A stretch of 64,000 bases of DNA from Stenomitos rutilans HA7619-LM2 (lineage in GTDB: Bacteria > Cyanobacteriota > Cyanobacteriia > Leptolyngbyales > Leptolyngbyaceae), in NCBI GenBank assembly GCA_019358945.1, contig JAHHIE010000001.1, positions 310,001 through 374,000 of the forward strand, written 5' to 3'. The notes under the pieces were generated by a model. The model did no database searches, had not been told where the DNA came from, and worked only from the letters and a program-made list of their open reading frames with translations. A program made the translations under genes and the position numbers. Shown one piece after another: positions 4,001 through 14,444 of this stretch. Each line of letters opens with the position of its first letter. Position 1 is the stretch's first letter.

Positions 4001-4099
4001 TGCGATCGCTGCTGGAACTACTCAACCCACGTCGGCGATTCAGAAGACCATCCACTTCTGTGTGAACGTTGCATTCCCGCATTGGAAGGAAAGTTTTGA
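1082..4099 (+). CDS. ileS: Isoleucyl-tRNA synthetase
   Basis: Charges tRNA-Ile in the cytoplasm. Class I signatures are visible: the HIGH equivalent HMGH at residues 69-72, the editing-domain region with TTTPWTIPANLAV near 250, the SDWCISRQRSWGVPIP segment, and KMSKS at 656-660. A C-terminal zinc finger uses Cys974, Cys977, Cys994 and Cys997. The 1005-residue length is larger than usual because residues 561-606, between the conserved FDSGSSWAAVLE and YPADMYLEGSDQHRGW blocks, are encoded by repetitive DNA rather than the normal short linker. The frame stays open through the insert, so the enzyme is probably functional. The ATG at 1082 is the start. Confidence 0.97.
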   Translation: MTVTEPGSYKDTVNLPKTNFDMRANASKREPELQAFWEAEQLYQQLSQENPGELFVLHDGPPYANGSLHMGHALNKVLKDIINKYHLLRGRKVRYVPGWDCHGLPIELKVLQTLKSEERKALTPLKLRQKAKEFALKTVDEQRQAFKRYGVWGDWEHPYLTLKPEYEAAQIGVFGQMVLKGYIYRGLKPVYWSPSSKTALAEAELEYPEGHTSRSLYAAFEVKQLSPALMMGLDSFMGTGELGVAIWTTTPWTIPANLAVSVNPELIYAVVEVGENALGRFKYLIVAKDLVDRLSEVLGTTLTVQATMVGRTLEHTTYQHPLFDRRSEIVIGGDYVTTEAGTGLVHTAPGHGQDDYIVGQRYGLPILAPVDDDGNFTEEAGQFAGLNVLGDGNTAVIAALQDAKALLKEEPYVHKYPYDWRTKKPTIFRATEQWFASVEGFRDQAVKAIADVRWIPAQGENRITPMVAERSDWCISRQRSWGVPIPVFYDEATGEPLLTRETIAFAQAIVAEKGSDAWWELPVEELLPEPYRSNGRSYRKGTDTMDVWFDSGSSWAAVLESDEFKVSSDELPENSKLSSAAAQSTPQNSKLKTQNIPFGNATRTKLAYPADMYLEGSDQHRGWFQSSLLTSVAVNGFAPYKTVLTHGFVLDEQGYKMSKSLGNVVDPTVIINGGKNQKEEPPYGADVLRLWVSSVDYSSDMRLGKTVLKQMADVYRKIRNTARFLLGNLHDFDPAKKAVLYEQLPELDRYLLHRMTEVFSEVTDAFDSFQFFRFFQTVLNFCVVDLSNFYLDSAKDRLYISAEDSPRRRSCQTVLAIALENLAKAIAPVLSHMAEDIWQALPYTTPHKSVFQAGWVKLKDQWRAPDLATKWQTLAQSRDEVNKVLEKARADKAIGSSLEAKLLLYTTDAQLKQTLQTLNPADSLSGNGVDELRYLFLTSQVELLDSTERLDGLKYSAQTNALQIGVVDADGKKCDRCWNYSTHVGDSEDHPLLCERCIPALEGKF
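2837..2892 (+). repeat. CAAAACT heptamer array plus a GGGAACGCTACGCGAAC-type repeat inside ileS
   Basis: Tandem copies of CAAAACT occupy about 2837-2866. Directly after, 2868-2892 is a second repeat with a small TTCCC/GGGAA inverted stem followed by CGCTACGCGAAC. The same heptamer array recurs between genes at 24327-24353 and 48017-48049. Here both repeats are translated in frame as part of IleRS, giving a Ser/Gln/Lys/Asn-rich linker. Confidence 0.85.
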
Positions 4100-4402
4100 A
4101 GACGACAAAAGATAATTAATCTAGACTGAAGCAAAAGTCGCAATTGAGATTGGTATTTTGATCATCGACGACCAAAATTAATCTAACGAACCAAGTCGGT
4201 CTAGCTGGATATAACTCAATGCAGAGAAATTTACGAAGGTTTCTGCATACGACATAACGTACCTGGAGGAGTTTGATTTAAGGCTCATGGGCAGTAGGCA
4301 TTAGTATTTTTAGGCTTAGAAAGCTTTTGGACTGCCAGATCTGTTTTGTGTTTTAGTACAATACCCATAATCTTTTCGAAACCCAAAAAACCAACCATAT
4401 CT
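4100..4402. other. Spacer between ileS and the accessory ATPase
   Basis: AT-rich spacer of about 300 bases. A Shine-Dalgarno-like TGGAGGAG at 4264-4271 is not followed by an extended frame. No terminator with a clear stem and T-run was found after ileS. The drop in GC begins here and continues to about 6660. Confidence 0.4.
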
Positions 4403-6418
4403 ATGACATCTAAAACTAATTCTAATTCTCTTAATAGACAAATCAACGGGATGATGGATAAGTTCAAAAATAGTGCTCGAGGTATTCTTGAGTTTACGTT
4501 TCAAGAAGTGCAGAGTTATGAAAATGGGGTTTATGGAGTAGCTTTCGCAAAACCTTCGAAGAGATTGGCAGCTTCACTGGCTGTTGATCGAGAGTTGCTG
4601 ATGCTGTTTTCTAATTTCCCAGATCAACAGGTGCGGACAATCAAATTTGCTAATAAATTAATCAGTAGCTCCGAAGCCAGACTCGAATCCACAGTTGCAA
4701 TCATTGTGCATAAGGATAGAAGAGGCAACATGAAGCTTAAGAATTGGGGGCGAGAACTTGGTTTAGCCATTCTTCCAGTATTAGCTGCGGATACTATACC
4801 AGCAGGCGAAGAGCTTCAAAGACATCTAGCTTTTGAATTATTCTCTCACGATCCATTTGATGTAACGGGTCCAGTATCTGATGACGCACAATTTTATGGG
4901 CGACGTTCTGAAGCACAGGATTTAGCACGTAAATTGCAAACAGGTCAGATTAGGACCTGTTTGGGAATTCGCAAGATCGGTAAAACATCAATTCTTAATC
5001 GTATTATCAATGAAACTAAGGCTAATCATGATTGTGTATGCATAATGATTGACTGCTCCAAAGACATGGTTTGGCAAATGGGAGCAGCTCAACTAATGGC
5101 TTCAATTGCAGATGCCATCAAATCTTGCCAAAAGGAGCAAAAAATATATCGCGCAGTGGAAGTCAATACAAGCGAGCTTGAAATTTCAGCTTGCGCTAAG
5201 GATTTAGAAAAATTAATTTTAGATAGCGACCGTCCAATAATTCTGTTTATGGATGAAGTAGATTACATTACTCCAAGTAGTCCTACTAGTCATATTTGGA
5301 AGGGTGACTTTAATATATTTTGGCGTAATTTAAGAGCTGTTTATCAGGAGGTGCTGAGACATAATTCCATGCTCTCGCTACTAGTAAGTGGAGTCTCAAG
5401 TAGATGGTTCGCTGCTGGAACAATCGAGGGGATTGAGAATGCAGCATTAGCTTTTGTTCCCGAAGAGTATGTCTCTCCACTTCCGCGTGGCGCGACAGTA
5501 GCCATGCTGAAACGGTTAGCACGTCATGCCGGTCTACAATTTGACGAGAATGGTTTAGAGAGCATTGCAGAAGTATGTGCAGATATGCCCTATTGGGTTC
5601 GAAAAGCATCTTCTTATATTCATCGAAGAACTGAAATTGCTTCACGCCCCTTAAAGCTTGAGTTCGAACAAGTATCTAAATTGTTAGAAGAATTCGTCAG
5701 CTATGAAGGTGCGACGCTTGCTCAAGTTGCACTATCTCATCTTTTTAGCGTTCATCATGAATTAGAGAAGTATGTGAAGCTATGTAGTTTAAAAAGTGCT
5801 GAAATAGTTCCCAAATATTATCTTTCAGTTTTAGAAAAATATGGAATTATATCAAAGCCTACTCAATTCGGCACACCCGACAGCGCCTACGAAATATCAG
5901 GATTGATAATGAGAGAAGGATTAAAGCTTTATCTGGAAAGGCAGGATTCCACTGAGATATTTACCTCGGAAACAGTCAAGAAACTTGATACTGTTTCCAG
6001 TGAACTTGGAGAATGGGCAGAAGAGCTTGCATTAATTAGTAGACGGCGTAACTTACTTGAAAAAAAGCTCCGCCAAGTTTCCTTAAACTTTATAAAGTAC
6101 GACTCTTTGATGGATAAAAATAAGGCTTCTACAGCTTCAAGAATTTCTGCGATTATTGGGGGAACAAGCGATCGAAAAATTGCGAATCTTAGTGCAGACG
6201 AGATAATTGAGAAGTTCAATTGGACTGACTTATCTAAATTAATAGCTAAGGAATGGCAATTATTTGCAAAAGTCTTCGGAGACCAAAAACAGTTTGAACA
6301 GGATTGCAATGTCATCAACGATAGATTCGATGCTCACGCAAAAGATTTTGATGTCGCTGATATGGCTTTGTATCGTAGAAGTCTGAAGAGGCTTGAGGAT
6401 TCTATCGCTAAGTTATAG
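4403..6418 (+). CDS. STAND-like P-loop ATPase with HEPN-like C-terminal domain (putative defence protein)
   Basis: A 671-residue protein if started at ATG 4403; an in-frame ATG at 4346 would add 19 residues of poor coding character. Residues 1-165 form an unassigned N-terminal domain. A core ATPase follows, with Walker A GIRKIGKTS at about 188-196 and Walker B IILFMDEVD with acidic residues near 284-285, in the style of archaeal-type/STAND ATPases. A winged-helix-like region follows. The last 80 or so residues resemble Swt1-type HEPN domains and contain an Arg641...His645 pair (RFDAHAKD), with RxxxH spacing instead of the usual Rx4-6H. It is AT-rich, HIP1-poor and just upstream of MntA-HepT. 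Nucleotide-gated nuclease activity and antiviral function are inference; the ATPase call is firm. Confidence 0.75.
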   Translation: MTSKTNSNSLNRQINGMMDKFKNSARGILEFTFQEVQSYENGVYGVAFAKPSKRLAASLAVDRELLMLFSNFPDQQVRTIKFANKLISSSEARLESTVAIIVHKDRRGNMKLKNWGRELGLAILPVLAADTIPAGEELQRHLAFELFSHDPFDVTGPVSDDAQFYGRRSEAQDLARKLQTGQIRTCLGIRKIGKTSILNRIINETKANHDCVCIMIDCSKDMVWQMGAAQLMASIADAIKSCQKEQKIYRAVEVNTSELEISACAKDLEKLILDSDRPIILFMDEVDYITPSSPTSHIWKGDFNIFWRNLRAVYQEVLRHNSMLSLLVSGVSSRWFAAGTIEGIENAALAFVPEEYVSPLPRGATVAMLKRLARHAGLQFDENGLESIAEVCADMPYWVRKASSYIHRRTEIASRPLKLEFEQVSKLLEEFVSYEGATLAQVALSHLFSVHHELEKYVKLCSLKSAEIVPKYYLSVLEKYGIISKPTQFGTPDSAYEISGLIMREGLKLYLERQDSTEIFTSETVKKLDTVSSELGEWAEELALISRRRNLLEKKLRQVSLNFIKYDSLMDKNKASTASRISAIIGGTSDRKIANLSADEIIEKFNWTDLSKLIAKEWQLFAKVFGDQKQFEQDCNVINDRFDAHAKDFDVADMALYRRSLKRLEDSIAKL

Positions 6419-6667
6419 TTATAAAAATTTCCACCACTAGCGTGAATAGACCATTAAGATTTCTAAGGCGATGAGTAGTAAACTCAATTTTTTAAGATTT
6501 ATATCAATGCAGCTCTTGAAGGCGTTATATGTCAACAGCATCAAGCTGATTCATTATATCTGAAAGATATCTGGAAGATGCTGAATTAATTCATTAATCT
6601 CCTAAGTATTGGACTGGTATTTTCACAATGATGATGCTTTATAGCCTTCTGGAGCATAGAAAAAATC

Positions 6668-7021
6668 GTGATGAATACAAAATATAAACAGGCTCTTTTG
6701 CCAACAATGTCTGTACAAACAAAAGCTCAAGTGTTGTCTCTTCTTCAGAAATATCAACCAGAACTACAGCAGTTTGGTGTCAATCGGTGCGGTATTTTTG
6801 GGTCGTTTGTTCGTGATGCTAACGTTCATGAACAAAGTGATGTTGATATTCTAGTTGCATTTGAGCCAGACCAAAAAACCTTTGATAACTTCATGCACTT
6901 GTCTTTTTTCTTAGAAGAGCTTTTTGGTAGAAGCGTTGACCTCATCACGATCGAATCACTCAGCCCTTACATCGGTCCGCGCATCTTAGACGAGGTGGAG
7001 TATGTCTCCATCGGCTCGTGA
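6668..7021 (+). CDS. mntA: MntA-type nucleotidyltransferase antitoxin
   Basis: Minimal nucleotidyltransferase of the DNA polymerase beta fold. Characterised MntA proteins neutralise HepT by attaching AMP to a tyrosine beside its active site. The catalytic signature GSFVRDANVHEQSDVD is visible, with Asp-x-Asp metal ligands; the spacing from GS to the first Asp is 11 residues, one more than the textbook GSX10DXD. The frame opens with GTG at 6668 and has ATGs at 6671 and 6707, so the start is uncertain. Its 3' end overlaps hepT by 20 bases, indicating translational coupling. Confidence 0.88.
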   Translation: MMNTKYKQALLPTMSVQTKAQVLSLLQKYQPELQQFGVNRCGIFGSFVRDANVHEQSDVDILVAFEPDQKTFDNFMHLSFFLEELFGRSVDLITIESLSPYIGPRILDEVEYVSIGS

Positions 7022-7346
7022 GTATTTGCAGCATATTCTCGATGAAACGGCTTACCTCATAGCCAGTTCTGACAATCTCAGTAAACTAACTTTCGTACAG
7101 GATGAGACCCTAAAACGCGCGTTTGTTCGGAGCATTGAAGTAATCGGTGAGGCAGTGAAACAACTTCCTGACGCGCTGCGACAAAAATACGATGCGATTG
7201 AATGGCGCGCACTGGCGGGAATGCGCGATCGATTAATCCACAGCTACTTCGGCGTTGATTACGATATCGTATGGGACGTGGTCGTTAACAAAATCCCTGC
7301 ACTCAATGCAGAAATCAGAAAAATACTTGAGCATGAATATCCATAA
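7002..7346 (+). CDS. hepT: HepT-type HEPN ribonuclease toxin
   Basis: Small all-helical HEPN toxin of 114 residues that cleaves RNA when released from MntA. The catalytic RX4HXY motif is intact as RDRLIHSY. This Tyr is the known AMPylation target in the family. Overlap with mntA and the antitoxin-first order fit the classical operon. The preserved catalytic motif suggests an active toxin, not a relic. It lies directly downstream of the STAND-like ATPase, forming a small defence or stress island. Confidence 0.92.
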   Translation: MSPSAREYLQHILDETAYLIASSDNLSKLTFVQDETLKRAFVRSIEVIGEAVKQLPDALRQKYDAIEWRALAGMRDRLIHSYFGVDYDIVWDVVVNKIPALNAEIRKILEHEYP

Positions 7347-7514: not shown

Positions 7515-7817
7515 CTAGACCAACTCTTCCTCTTTGTGAGTTTCGATCGTGCAGTCAGAGGTGGGATGAGACACACAGATCAACACATAGCCAGCCGCAA
7601 TTTGATCTTCATCCAAATATGACTGTTCTGATTGATCAACAGAGCCTTCAACTAACTTTCCAGTACAGGTAGAACATACGCCCTGCCGACAAGAATAGGG
7701 CAACTCCATCCCTTCATTTTCTGCCGTTTCAAGGATGTACGCATCATCGGGAACGTCTACGGTTTGGTCAATGCCTTCTGCTTCGTTTGTGAGCTTGATC
7801 TTGTATGTTGTCGCCAT
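7515..7817 (-). CDS. Plant-type 2Fe-2S ferredoxin
   Basis: Soluble one-electron carrier of the photosynthetic ferredoxin family, 100 residues. Cluster ligands are Cys43, Cys48, Cys51 and Cys81. The loop reads [12 protein letters not shown] where the main photosynthetic ferredoxin usually has CRAGACSTCAGK, and there is an extra Cys89, so this is probably a secondary isoform and not the major PetF. The C-terminal ETHKEEELV is typical. It is transcribed alone. Confidence 0.93.
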
Positions 7818-11510: not shown

Positions 11511-12179
11511 ATGTCTCGTGCTGGCAACAATATTCGCAAAATGGCGCTGAGGCGGCGCTTCAAAGCTATTCAACTCTTCATCGCAACTGCACTGCTAGCC
11601 TGTCTGCCCTTTGCAGGAAAAGCCTTTATCCAACAGTTAGCAGTCATTACAAATACAGCGATTGTCGTGCCTGCCTGGTTATATCTAGTGTGCTTCAGCA
11701 TGGCAGCCTTAACGCTGTGGAGTGGGTTATTTCTTTGGAAACGCGCCAACCATGCAGATCAGGGTGCAAAAGGGGAGGAAGACATTGCCGCGATGTTGAC
11801 ACCATTAAGCAGCGAGGGATGGCAGCTTGAGTATGGCATTCGTGATCGTCGTCTGGGAGACATCGACATCTTTTTGCTCTCACCCAAAAAGCGCGCTTAC
11901 ACGATCGATGTCAAATCGCACAAAGGGCAGGTTAGCAGTCAGGACGGCAAGCTCTATCGACAGTACGGCAAGAAAAGATATCCTTTTGAGAAAGATTTTT
12001 TGAGTCAAGCCAAGCAGCAGGCGATCGCGATGAAAGAGCAAAAAGGGTGACGAAGCGTAACCCCGATCGTTGTTTTTTCCGCTGCTAAGGTTGAAATTAG
12101 TGCAAATCCTATCAACCATGTCTATGTCTTTGGCAAAGAAACTCTCCTCAGTCAGCTACGATCGCTAGAGCGAATGTAA
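11511..12179 (+). pseudogene. NERD-domain membrane protein interrupted by an in-frame TGA
   Basis: Two hydrophobic segments (about residues 19-40 and 48-76) precede a NERD nuclease-related domain: GAKGEED near 85-91, LGDIDIF at 115-121 and YTIDVKSHKGQV at 130-141. Translation from ATG 11511 stops at TGA 12048-12050 after 179 residues. The same frame then continues without interruption for 42 codons, with VTPIVVFSAAKV matching the conserved final strand of the family, to TAA at 12177. The domain is therefore truncated by one nonsense codon. Options are a recent pseudogene, a sequencing error, or UGA readthrough (the next base is C). RbgA follows 31 bases later. Confidence 0.82.
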
Positions 12180-12210
12180 TTTCTTGCTCAACGTTTATGT
12201 GGCTTCTCCC

Positions 12211-13053
12211 ATGACAACGCCTTCGATTCAGTGGTATCCCGGACACATCGCTAAAGCCGAAAAAGCGCTGATGGAGCAGCTCAAGCGGGTTGATGTCGTG
12301 CTGGAAGTGCGAGATGCGCGGATTCCTCTTACGACAGAGCACCCTCAAGTGCAGCAGTGGTTAGGCAGCAAAGGGCGAGTACTGGTGCTGAACCGGATTG
12401 ATATGATCCCTGCATATGCGCGGCAACAGTGGACGGAATGGTTTCGATCGCAGGGCGAAGAACCGTACTTCACCGATGCTCAACATGGAAAAGGCATTGA
12501 GACGGTGTTGCAAGCCGCTCAAAAAGCAGGGGAACAGATGAATCAGCGTCGGCGCGATCGAGGCATGTTACCCCGACCTGTGCGCGCCGTTGTCATTGGC
12601 TTTCCAAACGTCGGCAAATCAGCACTCATCAACCGTTTGCTGAAGCGACGTGTGGTGGACAGCGCTCGTCGTGCAGGGGTCACCAAGCAATTACGCTGGG
12701 TCAGAATTTCTGACGAAATTGAACTGTTGGATGCACCTGGAGTATTGCCATCCCGACTCTATAATCAGGATGCTGCACTTAAGCTGGCGATTTGCGATGA
12801 CATTGGTGAAGCGGCGTATGACAACCAACGGGTCGCGGCAGCATTGGTGGAGATGCTCAAGGATTTGGTGATCGAGTCCGTCTTGCAAACGCGCTACAGC
12901 CTGGATGCACAGACGCTCACAGGTGAAAGCTATTTACATGAACTGGCAGCCCGTCGGCACCAGGGTGACGTCGAACGGACTGCACGGCAATTGCTGAATG
13001 ACTTTCGGACAGGTGTATTAGGCGCGATCGCGCTAGAGCACCCACTGCTGTAA
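12211..13053 (+). CDS. rbgA: Ribosome biogenesis GTPase YlqF/RbgA
   Basis: Circularly permuted GTPase acting late in 50S subunit assembly. The motif order is permuted as expected: G4 as LNRIDM, then G1 as GFPNVGKSAL, then G3 as DAPG. The N-terminal IQWYPGHIAKAEK is diagnostic. The ATG at 12211 gives this canonical N-terminus; an in-frame TTG at 12184 would add nine residues without conservation. The C-terminal helical domain is complete. Confidence 0.95.
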   Translation: MTTPSIQWYPGHIAKAEKALMEQLKRVDVVLEVRDARIPLTTEHPQVQQWLGSKGRVLVLNRIDMIPAYARQQWTEWFRSQGEEPYFTDAQHGKGIETVLQAAQKAGEQMNQRRRDRGMLPRPVRAVVIGFPNVGKSALINRLLKRRVVDSARRAGVTKQLRWVRISDEIELLDAPGVLPSRLYNQDAALKLAICDDIGEAAYDNQRVAAALVEMLKDLVIESVLQTRYSLDAQTLTGESYLHELAARRHQGDVERTARQLLNDFRTGVLGAIALEHPLL

Positions 13054-13505
13054 CGAAAAGGCCAACAACATTGAGTAGCCGTAGAAAGATCTAACGATCA
13101 GGGCTTGGTTGATGACGAAACGCTCTCCCCCCAAGCACTCTCCCAGAGCGGGAGCAAGAAGATTCGATTCCGGTTCTCTCTTGCAAGTTGAGAGAGGGTG
13201 GTTTGGGCAATTCAACAGGCTCAGTTTAATTGCATCTATTTGCTTATTAGATAGATTTCTTAATAGTTGACAAGTTTATAGATTAATGGGACATCTTTAT
13301 TCATTCTTTACAGAAATTCTCCTGACCTTCAGTATGATTGCGCAAGAAGCTTTTCGCTAGCGTCTTCCATTAGCGCTTTACAGGTTTTAACCACTTCGTG
13401 TAGACATCAAGATCGGTGTGATTTTGAGCATGCACATTAATCAACATCAAAGCTGGATTTGTTTCTAAGGCGTGCTCTGATCAGCGATTCCAGAGAGACA
13501 TTCTT
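13054..13505. other. Non-coding region with short inverted repeats
   Basis: About 450 bases. At 13130-13205 there is repeat-like DNA with small stems, CTCCC/GGGAG near 13141-13155 and CTCTC/GAGAG near 13178-13196, of the type scattered through cyanobacterial genomes. The AT-rich second half probably carries the promoter of the methyltransferase gene. No gene was recognised. Confidence 0.45.
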
Positions 13506-13556
13506 ATGTTTAGCTCTCTCAAACCCTCAACTTTTATATATAAAGGTACTTTACTA

Positions 13557-14444
13557 ATGCATACGAAGCAGCAGTTAAGCTTACAATCGTTTCTCGTTGC
13601 GGATCACCAGGTCAGTTTTGAAGCTGATATTCCAGCATGCGTTCTTCCTGATAGCCCTTCGGTGCAGGCCAATCGCGTTTACTTCAGCAATCCTAAATGG
13701 GCAAAAACTTATTTTGAAGCTTGTCACCGCGATCGTGCATTTAGGGAGCGTTGGTATGCCGCCGCCGGCAGTTGGGACGACAAGATTGTAGTAGACATCG
13801 GCTGTGGTCCGGGCAATCTCTACGCAAACCTGGGTGGCAAACCAACGTTATTACTGGGGGTCGATGTTGCCCAGGGTTCATTGAAAATGGCGCAAGAGCT
13901 CGGTTACACGCCCTTACTGGCTGACGCTCATCACCTGCCACTGGTTTCAGAGTTTGCTGATGTTGTGGCAATCAATGCCAGTTTGCATCACTGCGATGAT
14001 ATGGAAACCGTTTTGGCGGAAGCGGCACGATTAGTCCGACCTGGCGGCATTTTAGTCGTTGACCATGAGCCACAACTGACCGCCTGGGACTACAAAGGAT
14101 TAGGGCTGTTGCTTTACAAGATGCGTTTGGGAATTATTTATCGCTTTTTTCTACGCAGCCTAGACGCTCCTGACGAAGAGCGATCAAAGGCATTGGCAAC
14201 GGAAGTGCATCATCAGCCAGGTCATGGCGTTACCTCAGCGTTGTTTCATCAAACGCTAGAACCAATGGGCTTTCGCGTGAATGTTTATCCTCATAACAAT
14301 GCGATCGGCGCTGATGCCTTGAACGGTGTGTACGGCGACCCACCTCACTGGCGTTATCGCATCGGACAATTGCTCTCTGGTCTTAATCCCTATTCTGCGG
14401 ATGCGGCGTTGTCGTTAATGTGCGTTGCTGTACGTCAGGTTTGA
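13557..14444 (+). CDS. Class I SAM-dependent methyltransferase
   Basis: Motif I is clear as VDIGCGPGN, followed by GVDVAQGSL, ADAHHLPL and the post-motif region LVRPGGILVVDHEP, all typical of methyltransferase family 11. About 295 residues from ATG 13557, which is preceded by AAAGGT; an in-frame ATG at 13506 would add 17 residues. The substrate cannot be told. It is convergent with the polysaccharide export gene, with only 16 bases between stops, so it may or may not belong to the cluster. Confidence 0.87.
   Translation: MHTKQQLSLQSFLVADHQVSFEADIPACVLPDSPSVQANRVYFSNPKWAKTYFEACHRDRAFRERWYAAAGSWDDKIVVDIGCGPGNLYANLGGKPTLLLGVDVAQGSLKMAQELGYTPLLADAHHLPLVSEFADVVAINASLHHCDDMETVLAEAARLVRPGGILVVDHEPQLTAWDYKGLGLLLYKMRLGIIYRFFLRSLDAPDEERSKALATEVHHQPGHGVTSALFHQTLEPMGFRVNVYPHNNAIGADALNGVYGDPPHWRYRIGQLLSGLNPYSADAALSLMCVAVRQV

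Follow-up and report, generated by a model that had tools for sequence, protein, structure and literature searches.

The interval between ileS and a ferredoxin gene in this cyanobacterial genome (7.28 Mb) raises the question of what kind of system has come to occupy it, and whether its genes act together or simply lie side by side. Within the window (the whole stretch of 64,000 nucleotides that was analysed), whose HIP1 octamer density and genes suggest a cyanobacterium, three plus-strand genes fill the interval, coding for a 671-residue ATPase, an MntA-like nucleotidyltransferase and a HepT-like RNase. The original prediction saw here two HEPN-type modules that could be layered abortive-infection systems. 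The reading that we consider likely is that the gene at 4403-6418 arrived by horizontal transfer and works on its own as an NLR-like switch for abortive infection, with a predicted RNase effector. The features involved are as follows.

Stop at 4099: ileS, upstream border of the insert
4403..6418, plus strand: predicted STAND-HEPN gene, 671 aa, single-gene system (ATG 4403 to stop 6418; AlphaFold2 model; full-length homologues)
4403..4852, plus strand: N-terminal domain, residues 1-150, modelled PD-(D/E)XK-like fold, candidate sensor (domain model, structural matches)
4850..5962, plus strand: modelled STAND NOD module (NBD-HD-WHD), residues 150-520 (AAA_35 match; VIA structural matches)
4964..4990, plus strand: Walker A GIRKIGKTS, residues 188-196 (alignment of 71)
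5252..5257, plus strand: D284-E285 of Walker B FMDE, residues 282-285 (alignment of 71)
6005..6415, plus strand: putative Swt1-like HEPN domain, residues 535-671, predicted RNase effector (PF18731, PDC-M34B, hhalign)
6317..6340, plus strand: HEPN motif N639-x-R641-F-D-A-H645-A (conservation in 63 HEPN-type sequences)
6671..7021, plus strand: MntA-like minimal nucleotidyltransferase (PF01909, NTP_transf_2, 2e-11; PADLOC PDC-S09 1e-36; GSFVRx..SDVD)
7002..7346, plus strand: HepT-like RNase toxin, MntA partner (PF01934 8e-26; RDRLIHSY = Rx4HxY)
7515-7817, minus strand: ferredoxin gene, the other border of the insert

That the interval is an AT-rich insert is borne out by its composition, as G+C, about 0.50-0.57 on both flanks, drops to about 0.36-0.43 over 4250-6750, and by the genus, in which the same interval varies from one genome to another. 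The accompanying claim that it is poor in HIP1 is literally correct, the octamer being absent between 4009 and 8397 against an expectation of about 3.8, but this is weak evidence, and HIP1 scarcity was rejected as a strong sign of insertion, since comparable or longer gaps, of 4.5 and 5.9 kb, exist elsewhere in the same 64 kb. Flanking direct repeats, tandem repeats and a transposase were all looked for at the insert and none was found. A promoter scan gave fewer sites than shuffled sequences and was uninformative.

Within the genus the slot between ileS and ferredoxin serves as a hotspot for the insertion of immune-type genes. In one congener (G387) only 40 bp separate the two genes and the slot is empty; in another (G386, locus L160, G386:C111, 3999-7397) it is occupied by a STAND-TPR protein of 1132 aa whose C-terminus is a TIR domain (TIR_2 1e-8); and in a third (G391) it holds a small cupin-like ORF and an MntA-HepT pair, with no STAND gene. 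The cupin-like ORF (124 aa, positions 125-499 of L162, G391:C87) lies ahead of mntA, where the window has its STAND gene. The G391 pair is 85% identical to that of the window, the HepT copy 85.8%. In the window, mntA and hepT are both intact, as had been reported, and they overlap, with the MNT motif GS-x-D-x-D and the HepT Rx4HxY in adjacent genes, although they score 41.6 and 34.7 bits, below the NCBIfam equivalog cut-offs (60 bits each). The true start of MntA is probably ATG 6707 and not 6671, given that homology to the G391 pair begins there.

The open reading frame at 4403-6418, with its Walker A and Walker B, is indeed the 671-residue P-loop ATPase that had been described, and its full-length AlphaFold2 model, based on an alignment of 71 homologues, has a mean pLDDT of 90.5. 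On this model, residues 150-520 appear to be a STAND/NLR switch. They match AAA_35 (8e-8, above the Pfam cut-off), and in the VIA comparison, which recovers in them the NOD architecture of P-loop NBD, helical domain and winged helix, their best match is the archaeal 2qen (Z 19.1, rmsd 4.8, 311 residues), with CED-4 (Z 18.0, rmsd 4.4-4.5, 295-297 residues) and the plant NLR resistosomes (Z 14.6-18.5) also matching. Residues G188, R190, G193, K194, T195 and S196 of Walker A are invariant in 71 of 71 sequences, and so are D284, E285, P396 and R400, P396 being the conserved proline of a GxP-like motif. These matches and invariant residues sustain the reading as a P-loop STAND ATPase, for which NCBIfam contributed nothing useful. 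A C-terminal repeat sensor is common, though not universal, in STAND proteins; no repeat family was matched, and beyond the winged helix the model shows HEPN alone.

The N-terminal region had been left unassigned, with the proposal that it be modelled. Modelled alone, residues 1-150 reach a pLDDT of 92.3 and would adopt a PD-(D/E)XK-like fold, the best structural match being EndoMS/NucS (Z 9.9, rmsd 2.9, 104 residues), with another EndoMS/NucS at Z 8.3 and a Foldseek E of 1.2e-3. Further matches include nicking and restriction enzymes, the CRISPR-ancillary Can1/Can2/Card1, Cap4, McrC and RPB5; below a Z of about 8 such lists may reflect a common arrangement only, and it is the consistency of the family that was counted as telling. 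In the alignment of 71, E64, R78 and R93 are near-invariant. The catalytic (D/E)xK pair, looked for as [DE]xK at 64/66, occurs in 0 of 71 rows, so that the classical nuclease site is absent, and the modelled domain would have the fold of the superfamily without its canonical catalytic site. Two apparent cyanobacterial relatives of the domain (residues 56-146, 34%) turned out to be homologues of DNA polymerase III delta that matched locally by chance. A DrmC match to residues 3-102 (E 6e-4) was also discarded, having few members, and the fold of the domain being nuclease-like and not PLD.

For residues 535-671 the assignment as a Swt1-like HEPN domain, which agrees with the original prediction, is drawn from relatives, profiles and conservation. 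The VIA list for the whole model is filled with ATPase matches and says nothing on the HEPN fold. The protein of the window has itself no Pfam HEPN/PF18731 match reported at E up to 1; among the 71 homologues, PF18731 matches 11 (E up to 0.1; best 3.4e-6) and PADLOC PDC-M34B matches 25 (best 1.8e-9), in both cases at the C-terminus where positions are shown. In hhalign, a profile of 63 C-domains aligned with one built from eight cyanobacterial Swt1 HEPN domains at an E of 6.8e-5, with a probability of only 64%, against 0.29 for the N-domain profile used as a control, and sequence searches of the PDB with the HEPN and N-domain profiles returned no meaningful match. The 63 aligned sequences of HEPN type share six invariant residues (R549, E553, R557, N639, R641 and H645). 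The motif RFDAHAKD, at residues 641-648, is present as had been noted, with its N, R and H invariant, but the spacing between R641 and H645 departs from the canonical HEPN Rx4-6H, being Rx3H in most rows, with Rx4H in a minority at the same place. The domain can be predicted to act as an RNase effector.

The scan of 84,980 genomes gave 162 relatives, of which 80 were kept; 71 were aligned for the model and for conservation, 63 of them of HEPN type. These homologues are mostly uniform in size (650-690 aa) and are found in Chloroflexi, Proteobacteria, Actinobacteria, Firmicutes, Bacteroidetes and an archaeon, among others, the nearest relatives of the window protein being those of Chloroflexi, Proteobacteria and Paenibacillus; among 386 sampled genomes of its own phylum, this is the only one with a full-length copy. 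The viral contigs and phage records searched held no relative, and those collections therefore give no support for a phage-borne gene, the satellite-borne copies having come from E. coli chromosomes. The best reading of the gene at 4403-6418 is that of a solo gene, horizontally acquired, of a family patchily spread over many phyla. Elsewhere in this genome an open frame of 1022 aa (G000:C43:2159-2968), 30% identical over ATPase residues 143-405, codes for a separate AAA_35-type STAND protein.

The family also exchanges domains. A Nocardioides protein (L118, 7851-10259) keeps the N-domain and the NOD, with 25% identity over residues 50-445 (E 3e-29), and has in the place of HEPN a Ser/Thr kinase (540-790) resembling PD-T4-6/mad6, PD-T4-6 being a defence kinase; this replacement suggests that the C-terminus is the effector. 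In seven other homologues (L104, L107, L109, L113-L115 and L117) the C-terminal 150 aa are different, with no Pfam match and a YRx4H motif recognized by eye, and could perhaps be a second HEPN type. Two Firmicutes proteins have an N-terminal cold-shock domain added to the same chassis (L083, 7704-7895, CSD 5e-11; L105, 7680-7871, 9e-12). We would propose, with some hesitation, that all these proteins form a widespread and previously unnamed family of one-gene immune receptors, made up of a catalytically dead PD-(D/E)XK domain as sensor, a STAND switch and, at the C-terminus, an effector that can be exchanged, whether a HEPN RNase, a domain of the second HEPN-like type or a Ser/Thr kinase.

A survey of the neighbourhoods of the homologues, proposed together with the original prediction, places them in defence-type contexts and not only in housekeeping ones. 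No conserved partner gene was found near them. The two nearest genes per side matched 352 and 263 PADLOC families (132 and 133 genes), versus 137 for 131 distal genes, a crude control, in that the family counts are redundant and the distal genes were drawn from the same loci. The PADLOC matches include R-M, a Druantia methylase, RT, Cas1 and MADS, among others, to which Pfam adds BrxC, integrases and resolvases. A homologue carried by a Klebsiella plasmid is matched at 94% in 5 of the 5426 E. coli genomes, and in the three E. coli loci that were read (KL53, HH107 and UPEC-245U) the homologue is the sole cargo gene between int, at tRNA-Sec, and psu, in a P4-like satellite; this int-psu interval is an experimentally validated reservoir of defence genes (Rousset et al., 2022, PMC9122126). 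With the window protein the E. coli one shares 24% identity over 662 alignment columns (E 1e-43), and it has RGDAHA (RxDAHA) at the motif. The annotation of UPEC-245U (L177, 12001-14004) splits the homologue into two ORFs (12001-12972 and 13144-14004), and this copy may be inactivated.

The protein would probably act in the fashion of a NOD-like receptor, with one end sensing a virus and the other cutting RNA. Some cue from the invader would be detected by the degenerate nuclease-fold N-domain, perhaps together with the switch; the STAND ATPase would then exchange its nucleotide and oligomerise; oligomerisation would pair the C-terminal HEPN domains into active RNase dimers; and these could cleave cellular or phage RNA, and in this way stop the infection. 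The computed support for the proposal consists of the division into three domains, the assignment of two of them as STAND and HEPN, the conservation of the HEPN motif, the kinase replacement in one member, the residence of homologues in the P4 defence hotspot and the insertion hotspot in the genus; sensing, oligomerisation, RNase activity and anti-phage function are what STAND and HEPN biology would lead one to expect.

Other explanations have to be weighed against this one. The polarity could be inverse, in the manner of Avs: the N-terminal PD-(D/E)XK-fold domain would be the effector, a nuclease whose non-canonical site lies around E64/R78/R93, and HEPN would be the sensor and bind RNA. The resemblance of the fold to nucleases and its near-invariant residues agree with this, as does the fact that the known STAND defence proteins usually have N-terminal effectors (TIR, SIR2 or nuclease; PMC9122126); we nevertheless find it unlikely, because in no row is there a (D/E)xK on the third strand, because the invariant residues of the C-domain are the catalytic ones of HEPN, and because it is the C-domain, and not the N-domain, that the kinase replaces in the Nocardioides protein. 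Decidedly unlikely, too, would be a selfish or maintenance module, that is, a toxin triggered by the loss of mobile elements or by competition between them and not directed against phages: homologues do reside on plasmids and satellites, and HEPN proteins are frequently toxins (PMC3710099), but no antitoxin partner is conserved, the chromosomal hotspots carry STAND-TIR and other defence genes instead, and the neighbours of the homologues are of the R-M, BREX and MADS type.

The two-tier system of the original prediction, in which STAND-HEPN and MntA-HepT would jointly carry out abortive infection, is not supported by the comparison and is to be regarded as highly improbable. The genes are on the same strand and adjacent, with 252 bp from the STAND stop to the annotated MntA start; however, in G391 the pair occupies this slot with no STAND gene beside it, which indicates that MntA-HepT and STAND-HEPN were acquired separately, the flanks of about 80 STAND-HEPN homologues contain HepT in no case and MntA in one, and HepT-like matches are common in the lineage (5 in this genome; present in 26 of 30 related genomes). 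MntA-HepT is thus a separate type VII toxin-antitoxin module, an independent neighbour in the same hotspot, and its adjacency to STAND-HEPN is best read as chance co-residence there.

If the one-gene receptor reading is true, the order of its domains would reverse the effector-switch-sensor order usual in NLR-like proteins, and at some 670 aa, without an array of repeats, it would rank among the smallest NLR-like receptors that are complete; sensing would then have to fall to the compact degenerate nuclease-fold domain or to the switch itself. Since a P4-like satellite of E. coli carries a homologue, an ordinary laboratory strain would allow a direct test of the question, the kinase that takes the place of HEPN is a natural domain-swap experiment, and the ileS-ferredoxin gap offers a small and readily screened defence hotspot in this cyanobacterial genus.

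As regards known systems, fusions of STAND ATPases to Swt1-like HEPN domains were already listed in 2013, as predicted suicide RNases (Anantharaman et al., PMC3710099). No paper naming the STAND-HEPN family of the window was found in open-licence PMC text, nor does any model in PADLOC 2023 or NCBIfam 2026 cover the 671-aa protein; the open-licence PMC text that was searched yielded no description of an architecture that opens with a degenerate PD-(D/E)XK domain, lacks repeats and ends in a replaceable effector. The fusions of 2013 are like the window protein in uniting a STAND NTPase and a Swt1-family HEPN in one chain, and some of them have cold-shock or S1 RNA-binding domains, which may be counted as a further likeness; they differ in carrying either TPR and S1 domains or HEPN at the N-terminus, whereas the window protein has HEPN at its C-terminus, a PD-(D/E)XK-like domain ahead of the switch and no repeats. 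The MntA-HepT type VII toxin-antitoxin (PMC7641770) shares GSF..SDVD and Rx4HxY with the pair at 6671-7346, which is however below the equivalog cut-offs and separate from the STAND-HEPN gene. The DUF499-ATPase/HEPN proteins (Ava_2192; Hma or BREX-related, PMC12839542) likewise fuse a Swt1-family HEPN to an AAA+ ATPase, but there HEPN lies at the N-terminus, the ATPase resembles BrxC and the protein works with a methylase and a helicase, whereas the family of the window is a solo STAND gene. The TIR/SIR2/nuclease-STAND-TPR proteins of the P4 hotspot, where 18 systems were tested (Rousset et al., 2022, PMC9122126), are likewise single-gene STAND immune proteins, and a homologue of the window family occupies the same int-psu locus, but they carry the effector at the N-terminus and repeats at the C-terminus, whereas the window protein has its predicted effector at the C-terminus and no repeats.
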